Positions 3,754 through 7,475 of a stretch of 23,860 nucleotides of DNA are shown piece by piece. The first letter of the stretch is position 1. Every line of letters starts with the position of its first letter. Both the position numbers and the translations under genes were made by a program. The notes under the pieces are model-generated. The model saw only the letters and a program-made list of their open reading frames with translations, was not told where the DNA came from and made no database searches. Source of the DNA: a virus; the IMG/VR virus record IMGVR_UViG_3300035212_000876, positions 1-23,860 of that record, one strand, 5' to 3'.

Positions 3754-4563
3754 TTACATTTTATTACCACACATTTCAATACAATTTTTACAATTACCTG
3801 TATATGCTTTTTTATTAAATTTACTTACTAAAATTTTTTTACCTAAAAACTTAGAATTTTTAACTTTAATAATTGATTCCTTTATTAAATAATTTCCTTT
3901 TGAAGGTCTAAAGACTGTATCAATTACATTTTCATTTTTAAATAAAGAATTTTGAATTATAGAATATTGTAAACCAAGTTCATTTTCTTTATTAAAATCA
4001 AAAGATACTATACGTAATATTGATTTGCAATAATTTTTTAATAAATTATATTGATATAATCTATTATTTAATTCTTCAAAAGAATCAATAGCAGATATTG
4101 AAGTATTTATACAAATATTCATTTTTTTAATTTTTTCAAGTTGTTCAAGTGTTAAATTATTCCAATGTTTTGTTATTATTACAATTTGCTTAGTATCATT
4201 ATCTATATCAAATAATTTTAATTGATTATCTTTTAAACCATTTGAAATTTGTTCACAAATATTTATTGTATGTTCCCAATTTTCTGAAGGGTCACCGCTG
4301 CTACCCATTCTTATAAAAGGCAAATCAATTTTTTTAATTTTAGATATTATTTCATAATAATGTTTTTTATTTTTAAAATATCTTAAAACATTTTTACTAA
4401 AATCATAACCATACAATTTAGCCGATTTAGCAGAATAACAATCATTATAACAACCCATTTTATTATGAGCCATGCCAGAAGCACAGCCCATAATAGGGTC
4501 AATAGAAAAAATACCTCTTTTATTTTCAGTTAAAGATATTATTTTTGAATATTGTTTTTTCAT
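3754..4563 (-). CDS. Radical-SAM-like protein with two Cys clusters
   Basis: A 269-residue protein. The N-terminal motif Cys27-x10-Cys38-x3-Cys42-Tyr resembles the Cys-rich Fe-S loop of DUF5131/Gp37-type and spore-photoproduct-lyase-like radical SAM proteins, though it is not the canonical CxxxCxxC. RMGSSGDPSENWEH (about 85-98) and IVIITKHW...INTSISAIDSFEEL fit later TIM-barrel strands. A second cluster, C258-x2-C261-x3-C265, sits at the extreme C-terminus. If it is a radical SAM enzyme it would use AdoMet and Fe-S to modify a nucleic acid or small substrate; the substrate is unknown. It starts 3 nt after the stop of the GNAT-methyltransferase gene. It is far richer in A/T than its neighbours, which suggests recent acquisition. 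Confidence 0.6.
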   Translation of the reverse strand: MKKQYSKIISLTENKRGIFSIDPIMGCASGMAHNKMGCYNDCYSAKSAKLYGYDFSKNVLRYFKNKKHYYEIISKIKKIDLPFIRMGSSGDPSENWEHTINICEQISNGLKDNQLKLFDIDNDTKQIVIITKHWNNLTLEQLEKIKKMNICINTSISAIDSFEELNNRLYQYNLLKNYCKSILRIVSFDFNKENELGLQYSIIQNSLFKNENVIDTVFRPSKGNYLIKESIIKVKNSKFLGKKILVSKFNKKAYTGNCKNCIEMCGNKM

Positions 4564-4566
4564 AAT

Positions 4567-5958
4567 TTACAATCTGCCAACGTTAGGAAATAAGTCTTTA
4601 ATTTTTGATGTATCACCCTTATAAAAAACATAAATACGCTGCTCACATTTTGGGTATTTACGGCTATTTAATGTTTTCTTAGCAGTTGCACGTCTTGTAA
4701 ATTCACTTTCTAAGTAAATTATTTTATTATAAATGTGTAGACCTTGTTCCTTGAAAAATAATTCATGTTCTGCATCACTGCCATAATAACCACCATCTTT
4801 ATTTCTACTATCACCTGTCATTACTACAAAAAAAGTATTATCATTCATTACAGATATAGCATTTTTATAACCTTCAAAAAGCATATCCCTAAACTGCTCG
4901 TAAGTAGACAAAGAATTTAATTCGCCTTCAGGACTTTTACCATCATAATCAATATATTTTTCAACTTTGTAATAAGGTGGACAACTAAAAATTAAATCAT
5001 ATTTTTTTGATGGCGTAAATTTTGAAGTGTCTGATTTATGCCATTTAACATTTTCATATTCTTGACATAAGGCATTATTTGCATCGCATTGATTTTGTCT
5101 GATTTCAGATGATAAATATTCGTAACCGCATCCACCTGCAACAAAACCCATTTGAACACCACCACCAAAAGGATTATAAACTGATTTACCATTTGTTGGC
5201 ATAAACATTCTTACTATAATTTCACAAGCAGTAGGGTCTAAAACACTTGCGTTGCCGTTTAAATCCTTTGTTTTATCAGTTATTACTTCATTATCAATAA
5301 CTTTTTGTTTTGATAGCACAATATTTGACATTCCTGCCTTACCCTGCCAACATCCTTCACGGCTTGCAAATTTTGGATTAGGAATATTATATTTTTTGCC
5401 CATTTCCTCTAACTTATAATTCCATTCCTTTTTTATTTTCATCCATTCGCCGCTAACTGATTGCCACAAATTAGTCATAGCCATATGACATAATCTTTTT
5501 ACCCTAACTTGAGATTCATCACCATAATATATGTATGTAAAATCGCTTTTTGTCAAATTAACTTTAAATCCTAATGCTAAAAATACTTTTGGATTTTCTA
5601 AATCATGTTTATTTGAAACGGTCATTACCATATGATAACCATATATATTTTGGTCTATTATTTTTTGAACCATCATACTATAAATGGCTTTATCTTTTTT
5701 GTTTTGATACATTGCTGACTGCAATAAACAAAATTCTTTAACCTGATGATTAACTTCATAAGTAAAAAATCCTGCAAACTCATCATCTATTTTTAAAATA
5801 ATAGCTGAATGCTTTTGCATATTTTTACGGGCTGCCCTATATGCTATTTTGTCAATTAAAGCAAGTTCAGCAACTTGTAATTCATACCCTGAACCAATTA
5901 CGCTATCAAATTGTAAAAGTTCAATTTTTGGTTCAAACATTTTTGTTTGTGTTGTCAT
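4567..5958 (-). CDS. GNAT-like domain fused to DNA methyltransferase
   Basis: A 463-residue fusion if started at ATG 5956-5958. A TTG at 5965-5967 would add three residues and overlap the helicase stop, but the ATG seems more likely. Residues about 1-150 look like a GNAT acyltransferase fold (SAIILKIDDEFAGFFTYEV, then ENPKVFLALGFKV), broadly comparable to phage Mom-type base-modifying proteins. Residues 240-460 form an amino-methyltransferase: YNPFGGGVQMGF (261-272) is the AdoMet loop and DLIFSCPPYY (321-330) the catalytic motif IV, followed by FFVVMTGDSRNKDGGYYG. It probably modifies an adenine or cytosine amino group in phage DNA to evade restriction. The added GNAT domain and the coupled radical-SAM-like gene hint at a modification beyond methylation, which is inference. 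Confidence 0.75.
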   Translation of the reverse strand: MTTQTKMFEPKIELLQFDSVIGSGYELQVAELALIDKIAYRAARKNMQKHSAIILKIDDEFAGFFTYEVNHQVKEFCLLQSAMYQNKKDKAIYSMMVQKIIDQNIYGYHMVMTVSNKHDLENPKVFLALGFKVNLTKSDFTYIYYGDESQVRVKRLCHMAMTNLWQSVSGEWMKIKKEWNYKLEEMGKKYNIPNPKFASREGCWQGKAGMSNIVLSKQKVIDNEVITDKTKDLNGNASVLDPTACEIIVRMFMPTNGKSVYNPFGGGVQMGFVAGGCGYEYLSSEIRQNQCDANNALCQEYENVKWHKSDTSKFTPSKKYDLIFSCPPYYKVEKYIDYDGKSPEGELNSLSTYEQFRDMLFEGYKNAISVMNDNTFFVVMTGDSRNKDGGYYGSDAEHELFFKEQGLHIYNKIIYLESEFTRRATAKKTLNSRKYPKCEQRIYVFYKGDTSKIKDLFPNVGRL

Positions 5959-5963
5959 AATTT

Positions 5964-7475
5964 TCAATGTTTTTTAGTTTTATAAAATTCGTTCCATTTT
6001 CTAAATACAGCAGCTTTTAAATCATCGCGGTTTATAGCATTCAAACCGTGTTTATTATTTATGTATTCAACTGTTCCAGATTCCTTTAAAACCCTACTTT
6101 CAAATACAAAATAAACCCATTTGTCTTTGTGACCGCGCTGTATTTTTAACTGCCATAAATCTTCAAGTGTGCGGCTTTTTGCCTGCTCGGTACGTTTAAC
6201 TTTCAATAGTTCGTCAAGTGTTGTTTCATCTTTTACGGCAACGCCTGCAACCTGTTCTATTTCGCTAACCTTTATCGGCTCAACAAAACCACAATAAGGA
6301 CATGCAGCGTGTGTTTTTTCATAAGTCCTAAAACATTCTGTACAATCTTTGTATTCATTATCAATCTGTTCATCTGTATCTTTTCGTTTTCGCTTTTGCA
6401 TTCCTTCTAATGTCCATTCGCGTGTCATTAGTGGATGCCCATGTAGTTTTTGATTGCCAACGTGGTCTAAAATTAAACAGCGTTGTTTACCTTCCATCGG
6501 TCTAAGTCCGCGCCCTACTATCTGTAAATACAAACTAAGTGACATTGTACGTCTAAGCATGCCTACAACTGATACGGCTGGTATATCTGTACCTTCGCTT
6601 ATCAAATCGCAAAACGTTACTACATGTATGCTACGATTAGCCAAACCTTCAAACGCGCTTTTTATTTCAGCATCTTCTAAGTTTCCATTTATAGAAACCG
6701 CCTTAAACCCTGCTTCATTAAACGCAGCTGCTACATTTTCGGAATGCTTAATATTTACGCATGAATAAATAGCAGGTTCACCAGGTGCTAAACGTTTATA
6801 TTCATCTACTGCGTTTCCTGTTATCGCTGGTTTGTCCATTTCGCGAAACAGCTGTTCAGTATTATATTCACCATCTTTATTTTTCTTTATGCCCTTAAAA
6901 TCAGCCAACGGTTTAAAGTTATAATACTCAGGCATAACTAAATTACCCATTTGCACTAATTCAGCTGGTAAAGGTCCTAAAACTAAATCACTAAAAACAT
7001 CGCCTAATCCTTGTCCATCGCCGCGCCAAGGTGTAGCAGTTACGCCCAAAACATAAACCTTATCGCCGTAAAAATCTAAAATATCTTTCCATGTTCCCGC
7101 GTTGGCGTGGTGCGCTTCATCTATAATCAGTAAGTCAGGCTGTGGCACTTCATTTAGCCGATTCTTTAAACTTTGAACGCTGCAAACTTGCGCTGGCAAA
7201 TAATACTGTTTCGGTCTATTGCCTGCTATGAATCCATGCTTTAAACCGTAACGCCTGCAACGTTCTGAAATTTGATTTACAAGGTTTTTTTTATGCACTA
7301 AGAAATAAACTCGCTTACCTTTTGCAATTGATTCCATTGCCATATAAATGAACGTTTCAGTTTTGCCGCCGCCTGTTGGTAATACAAATAGAACTTTTTT
7401 GTTACCGCTTTTATAGCTCTCTCTTATGTCGCTTACGCTTTTCAATTGATATTGCCTTAGCTGTATTGTGTTCAT
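5964..7475 (-). CDS. SF2 DEAD/DEAH-box helicase with zinc-finger tail
   Basis: A 503-residue helicase of the phage superfamily 2 type. Motifs in order: an N-terminal LRQYQ element, Walker A PTGGGKTE (33-40), DEAH in LLIIDEAHHA (119-122), TATPWR (146-151), and motif VI QIVGRGLRP (318-326). After the second RecA domain a CxxC...CxxC ribbon (Cys378, Cys381, Cys392, Cys395) probably binds zinc. It likely unwinds DNA during phage replication, recombination or repair. The ATG at 7473-7475 lies 65 nt inside the upstream HTH gene in another frame; the LRQYQ motif at the very N-terminus supports this start. Confidence 0.92.
   Translation of the reverse strand: MNTIQLRQYQLKSVSDIRESYKSGNKKVLFVLPTGGGKTETFIYMAMESIAKGKRVYFLVHKKNLVNQISERCRRYGLKHGFIAGNRPKQYYLPAQVCSVQSLKNRLNEVPQPDLLIIDEAHHANAGTWKDILDFYGDKVYVLGVTATPWRGDGQGLGDVFSDLVLGPLPAELVQMGNLVMPEYYNFKPLADFKGIKKNKDGEYNTEQLFREMDKPAITGNAVDEYKRLAPGEPAIYSCVNIKHSENVAAAFNEAGFKAVSINGNLEDAEIKSAFEGLANRSIHVVTFCDLISEGTDIPAVSVVGMLRRTMSLSLYLQIVGRGLRPMEGKQRCLILDHVGNQKLHGHPLMTREWTLEGMQKRKRKDTDEQIDNEYKDCTECFRTYEKTHAACPYCGFVEPIKVSEIEQVAGVAVKDETTLDELLKVKRTEQAKSRTLEDLWQLKIQRGHKDKWVYFVFESRVLKESGTVEYINNKHGLNAINRDDLKAAVFRKWNEFYKTKKH

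Follow-up and report, generated by a model that had tools for sequence, protein, structure and literature searches.

The DNA analysed here, referred to as the window, is a stretch of 23,860 nucleotides (positions 1 to 23,860 of IMG/VR virus record IMGVR_UViG_3300035212_000876), which carries tailed-phage genes including those for terminase subunits, a DnaB-like helicase fragment, a RecE-type exonuclease and a sigma factor. Two adjacent minus-strand genes are the subject of this report. One encodes a GNAT-like domain joined to an amino-methyltransferase (GNAT-MTase), and the other, located downstream after a gap of 3 nt, encodes a radical-SAM-like protein (Table 1). Two starts can be read for GNAT-MTase, a TTG (4567-5967, 466 aa) and an ATG (4567-5958, 463 aa), of which the ATG is the likelier. 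An earlier note on this DNA had described both ORFs and their 3-nt spacing, an N-terminal and a C-terminal cysteine set in the radical-SAM-like protein, and the motifs NPFGGG and SCPPYY in the amino-methyltransferase part of the other; all were found at the places and residues given there. A RadD-like DEAD-box helicase with a zinc-ribbon-like C-terminus (5964-7475) ends 5 nt before the ATG of GNAT-MTase, and was rejected as a member of the cassette because it is absent just upstream in every testable relative.

Table 1. Genes, domains and motifs of the two-gene unit, in window coordinates
Feature	Position	Strand	Description
Radical-SAM-like protein gene	3754..4563	-	269 aa; new family, without Pfam, PHROG, NCBIfam or PADLOC match
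C27-x10-C38-x3-C42-Y motif	4438..4485	-	loop between strand 1 and helix 1 (DSSP of model); predicted [4Fe-4S]/SAM site
R-x-G-x-x-GDPS motif	4285..4311	-	after strand 2
C258-x2-C261-x3-C265-G motif	3769..3792	-	C-terminal; candidate Zn or auxiliary Fe-S site
GNAT-MTase gene	4567..5958	-	463 aa from ATG; GNAT-like domain and amino-methyltransferase
GNAT-like domain	5524..5925	-	residues ~15-148 (TTG numbering); from strand/helix order of model
SAM-methyltransferase domain	4588..5250	-	residues ~240-460
Motif I, NPFGGG	5158..5175	-	residues 265-270; SAM binding; invariant in 38 homologues
Motif IV, SCPPYY	4969..4986	-	amino-methyltransferase type; Cys replaces Ser of SPPY

Predicted fold of the radical-SAM-like protein

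No family match for the protein was obtained in Pfam, PHROGs, NCBIfam or PADLOC, no match was found among the GenBank phages searched, and a literature search returned no described family. In an alignment of 36 homologues (32-70% identity), no change occurs at C27, C38, C42, C258, C261 or C265, nor at R85, G87 and P92 of the second motif, in which G90, D91 and S93 are near-invariant; parts of an I-T-x-HW and an NTS-x-S motif are invariant as well. Such conservation of six cysteines would imply a catalytic role. PF04055 matched no member of this family, the canonical CxxxCxxC is absent, and the spacing C-x10-C-x3-C is, to our knowledge, unlike any known for radical-SAM enzymes. Since radical-SAM enzymes with other cysteine spacings exist, the missing CxxxCxxC and PF04055 match lower the likelihood of radical-SAM membership without abolishing it. 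Two other assignments were rejected: DUF5131, touched by a single homologue at E 1e-3, was too weak, and a pentatricopeptide protein, the sole PDB profile match to the alignment, covers only ~35 residues and was taken as chance.

The AlphaFold2 model calculated from the homologue alignment (mean pLDDT 93.6) is a (beta/alpha)6 barrel, in which DSSP assigned six beta-alpha units, with the three N-terminal cysteines after the first barrel strand and GDPS after the second. In radical-SAM proteins the SAM-binding GGE-type motif sits after strand 2, and the modelled arrangement of strands, cysteines and GDPS is the layout of a radical-SAM core. The best Foldseek match in the PDB was SuiB (E 1.6e-3, probability 1.00; none below 1e-3), and TYW1, SkfB, LipA and PFL-activating enzyme were found in the same list, mixed with other TIM barrels. 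Against viral models the best E value was 3.3e-4, and the top 20 matches were nearly all radical-SAM proteins. The radical-SAM barrel suggested earlier was thus recovered by structure prediction, with which the PDB and viral matches agree. Based on the model, the window protein is highly likely to carry out radical-SAM chemistry with an unusual cluster motif, and C27, C38 and C42 form the predicted site of the [4Fe-4S] cluster and SAM cleavage.

The GNAT-MTase and its wider methyltransferase family

In the GNAT-MTase model, residues 15-148 run beta-alpha-alpha-beta-beta-beta-alpha-beta-alpha-beta-beta, which is exactly the GNAT order and agrees with the GNAT fold that had been claimed. Pfam and PDB profiles gave no significant family match for this domain: the sole match in the PDB profile search was 3bln, a GNAT, at E 0.15, and Acetyltransf_3 matched one member at E 0.095. 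A Q/R-x-x-G-x-G/A CoA loop is not visible in the alignment of GNAT-MTase homologues. The assignment as GNAT-like combines the predicted secondary-structure order with weak sequence matches, and because the CoA loop and a significant family match are missing, the domain may not bind CoA. Mom of phage Mu has a GNAT fold and is thought to modify adenine in phage DNA. The kinship with Mom that the earlier note had raised was not supported, as profile comparison with ten Mom proteins gave an hhalign probability of 0.15%, on which homology was rejected.

For the methyltransferase model, Foldseek returned 760 PDB matches at E<=0.001, and among the matches listed nearly all are SAM methyltransferases, in line with the amino-methyltransferase proposed before. 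The Rossmann SAM-methyltransferase fold was found together with FxGxG and [DNS]PP[YF], the latter in the variant form CPPY. C329-Y333 (CPPYY, 329-333) is invariant and Ser328 near-conserved in 38 homologues, of which 35 match PF01555 while the window member scores below the gathering score. The putative activity of the modelled domain is methyl transfer to an exocyclic amine of DNA.

The best Foldseek match of the methyltransferase model is aTrm11, a tRNA m2G10 methyltransferase, and RlmL and TrmN are also listed. Because the closest solved structure is a tRNA enzyme, the two genes might modify RNA (tRNA or rRNA), as do Elp3 and aTrm11, and the order of radical SAM and GNAT is also that of Elp3. 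We regard an RNA substrate as quite improbable, however: the methyltransferase domain falls into the phage ParB-MTase family, where ParB points to DNA; neither THUMP nor any other RNA-binding domain was detected; and outside viral contigs the cassette is almost absent (one of 297 genomes in the Smithella phylum). Compared with phage ParB-MTases, the domain was placed in the same family by hhalign (100%, E 1e-44), for which reason DNA is the likely substrate. (S/T/A)CPPY also occurs in the ParB-MTase relatives, and across the relatives of the methyltransferase the N-terminal domain is swapped among ParB, GNAT and another GNAT. The last of these was found in a prophage-like region of Riemerella columbipharyngis (L162, 5683-7323), where a different GNAT-like domain is fused to the same methyltransferase family and no radical-SAM gene lies near the fusion.

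The relatives are frequently accompanied by enzymes acting on SAM or amino acids. An AdoMet-decarboxylase gene is present at 51 of 81 ParB-MTase loci, generally directly downstream, these loci being ranked by similarity to a query that itself has an AdoMet decarboxylase (L163, 3470-5111; L165, 2503-4348; L260-L340). The AdoMet decarboxylase of Croceibacter phage P2559S was biochemically shown to be genuine (PMC9992855), and its neighbour gp66 is a ParB-MTase. Judged from gene content, such a pair might use decarboxylated SAM to aminopropylate DNA, or might form a base linked to a polyamine. The ParB-MTases of phages Pam4 and ZS04 are interrupted between motif I and motif IV by a PLP-enzyme domain, an arrangement seldom seen (L186, 1012-3501, Pam4_70; L185, 1093-3531, ZS04_7), and in AlanGrant a PLP enzyme adjoins the methyltransferase instead. 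The insert suggests an unusual DNA modification. As these AdoMet-decarboxylase and PLP partners show, the methyltransferase domain is repeatedly found with enzymes whose substrates are SAM or amino acids, which argues against plain methylation, and the family resembles a platform on which bases receive unusual alkyl groups. The earlier remark that plain methylation could do without the other parts was a fair inference, and it is strengthened by these relatives.

The same partners underlie the main rival explanation, in which the task of the radical-SAM and GNAT parts is to produce or load a derivative of SAM, or to change its aminoacid tail, and the methyltransferase puts this larger alkyl group on an exocyclic amine of DNA. 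The decarboxylase at 51 of the 81 loci together with the active P2559S enzyme (PMC9992855), the PLP-enzyme domains in or next to methyltransferase relatives, and the phage precedent of CmoA/CmoX, which works with carboxy-SAM (PMC12783734), all speak for it. Yet loci with the radical-SAM gene contain no AdoMet-decarboxylase or PLP homologue, with the exception of one contig (L011) where the decarboxylase belongs to a separate ParB-MTase pair. We also know of no SAM derivative made by a GNAT, and the modified-SAM route is considered unlikely. The contig in question (L011; 4357-5025, 8001-10174) carries the radical-SAM/GNAT-MTase pair as well as a second ParB-MTase of the same family and the AdoMet-decarboxylase homologue, and because both systems are on one phage contig they are probably not redundant.

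Linkage, fusion and exchange of the radical-SAM partner

Relatives of GNAT-MTase were found at ~80 other viral loci with identities of 64-90%, far beyond chance. In the search from GNAT-MTase, a homologous radical-SAM gene adjoins it at 82 of 87 loci, a few of which are the same contig counted twice, and the gap or overlap is mostly a few nt. In the reverse search from the radical-SAM gene alone, GNAT-MTase is directly upstream at 79 of the 80 best loci. The gene order is reversed at L077 and L082, where the radical-SAM gene is upstream. These locus counts do not represent independent events, since many of the IMG/VR loci are closely related. The pairing is nearly obligate.

All three domains are encoded by one ORF of 739-831 aa in L080/L081, L083, L158, L159, L160 and L161, in the order radical SAM, CxxCxxxC, GNAT, methyltransferase; the C-terminal cysteine set of the window protein (C258-x2-C261-x3-C265) lies at the radical-SAM/GNAT junction in L080, L083 and L158-L161. 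Fused homologues on genome contigs come from Desulfobacula (L158), Desulfobacterales (L159), Smithella (L160) and a spirochaete MAG (L161), the ORF of the last maybe overcalled at its start. In six close pairs, dN/dS was ~0.02-0.13 for GNAT-MTase and ~0.04-0.24 for its radical-SAM neighbour, and both genes are therefore under purifying selection. The gene pair that the earlier note had proposed to look for in other phages recurs widely, with at least six homologues fused, and its idea that the three activities belong together is borne out by linkage and one-chain fusions. The radical-SAM, GNAT-like and methyltransferase parts very probably act in one pathway.

At nine loci the slot beside GNAT-MTase is occupied by a second radical-SAM family (type B, SPL/PA0069-like) with the canonical CxxxCxxC (L051, L072, L085 with its near copy L074, L089, L090, L091, L098, L130, partly L157); the L072 member scores 40.5 bits for PF04055, where the cut-off is 29.5. 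In a tree built from 72 GNAT-MTases the type-B state needs nine changes, and well-supported branches force at least seven, where changes are gains or losses without direction and L098, L091 and L130 are long branches. The hhalign comparison of the window family with type B gave a probability of 10.8% with colinear motifs, the R-x-G-x-x-GDPS region aligning weakly but colinearly. With so low a probability, the kinship of the two rests on structure and not on sequence. The best argument that the needed step is a radical-SAM reaction is that two dissimilar radical-SAM families swap beside the same enzyme. Elsewhere, at loci that lack GNAT-MTase, type-B proteins are encoded near ParB-type proteins (34 loci), C5 methyltransferases (L088, L113) or another protein that resembles radical SAM. 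Examples outside the pair are L101 (2019-3501), L108 and L119 (4992-7414).

These observations bear on a simpler explanation, in which the enzyme is a plain DNA amino-methyltransferase, the GNAT-like domain does no more than help it bind DNA or choose its site, and the radical-SAM protein does some other, coupled work, for example in host takeover or in modifying proteins. The exchange of the N-terminal domain among relatives and the missing CoA loop motif would fit such a division of labour. Against it, the radical-SAM domain is fused in line with GNAT-MTase in several lineages, it is retained or replaced by another radical-SAM family, and its six cysteines point to catalysis; we consider it very unlikely.

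Proposed function and comparison with known systems

Domain anatomy, near-obligate linkage, fusion into one chain, recurrent swapping of the radical-SAM partner and purifying selection are the observations from which DNA as substrate, step order and chemistry are inferred. The explanation we prefer, with a probability of roughly 0.55, is hypermodification of phage DNA bases by the two genes acting as one functional unit, which would comprise a radical-SAM enzyme, a GNAT-like acyl handler and a methyltransferase-type domain that binds and flips the base. The [4Fe-4S] cluster at C-x10-C-x3-C would cleave SAM to a 5'-deoxyadenosyl radical, and the GNAT domain would supply or pass on a small acyl group. 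A radical formed from this acyl group (or from a target N-methyl) could then be joined through a C-C or C-N bond to the base that the methyltransferase domain holds, and the same domain may in addition methylate either this base or the product. The resulting base on phage DNA would carry more than a plain methyl group and might protect against host nucleases. That the product goes beyond methylation is fairly likely, the unusual group being suggested by the AdoMet-decarboxylase and PLP-enzyme partners of the family. Elp3-like logic on DNA is proposed because the fusions share the Elp3 domain order and add a methyltransferase domain; by this analogy, acyl transfer of the Elp3 type specifically is possible but rather doubtful. 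Slightly more tentative still is the broader picture of a phage counterpart of Elongator on DNA, in which radical-SAM and GNAT would derive a carbon radical from an acyl group to give a C- or N-linked acyl-derived base, and the methyltransferase family at large would serve SAM decarboxylase, PLP enzyme or radical SAM/GNAT interchangeably as a platform for unusual base alkylation.

DNA hypermodifications are a main way for phages to circumvent restriction and CRISPR-type defences, and new enzymes can be drawn from them. A fused radical-SAM/GNAT/methyltransferase acting on DNA would, if true, bring new chemistry to DNA, and its design would offer a small parallel, open to experiment, to the Elongator reaction, which is hard to reconstitute. 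Because two radical-SAM families have repeatedly replaced each other in this slot, a clean genetic test is within reach.

Elp3, the catalytic subunit of Elongator (considered here in its bacterial/archaeal form), consists of a radical-SAM domain, a three-cysteine linker site and a KAT/GNAT domain, and it carboxymethylates uridine with acetate derived from acetyl-CoA (PMC6367351; PMC13315578). The fused homologues, and they alone, resemble it in having radical SAM, a three-cysteine linker and GNAT in one chain, and Elp3 likewise acts on a nucleobase (PMC6367351; PMC13315578). In the window, by contrast, the three domains are divided between two genes, an additional methyltransferase domain is present, the unit is phage-borne, the cysteine spacing is C-x10-C-x3-C, and no CoA loop can be recognised. 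The Elp3 NCBIfam profile TIGR01211 did not match the window protein, and an Elp3 search in six host genomes gave no match above the cut-off.

Phage ParB-MTases (phrog_498/phrog_12517 type; e.g., Croceibacter phage P2559S gp66) share the methyltransferase family and (S/T)CPPY with the cassette, but they carry ParB instead of GNAT, and their partner is an AdoMet decarboxylase or PLP enzyme, not a radical-SAM protein. The Mom alignment also lacks the usual CoA loop, whereas Mom works without radical SAM or a fused methyltransferase and shows no detectable sequence relation. CmoA/CmoX/CmoY of Synechococcus phage S-B43 produce 5-carboxymethylcytosine and, similarly, a phage DNA methyltransferase there adds a larger group through partner enzymes (PMC12783734); the methyltransferase is a C5-cytosine enzyme using carboxy-SAM, and the system is without radical SAM or GNAT. 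SPL/PA0069-like type-B proteins take the same genomic slot, but differ in the canonical CxxxCxxC and are not convincingly similar in sequence to the protein of the window. A literature search found no paper naming the radical-SAM/GNAT/methyltransferase trio, of which an earlier mention is possible. Taken together with these systems, the cassette is a variant of phage DNA-hypermodification systems that is distinct from Elp3, Mom and CmoX.
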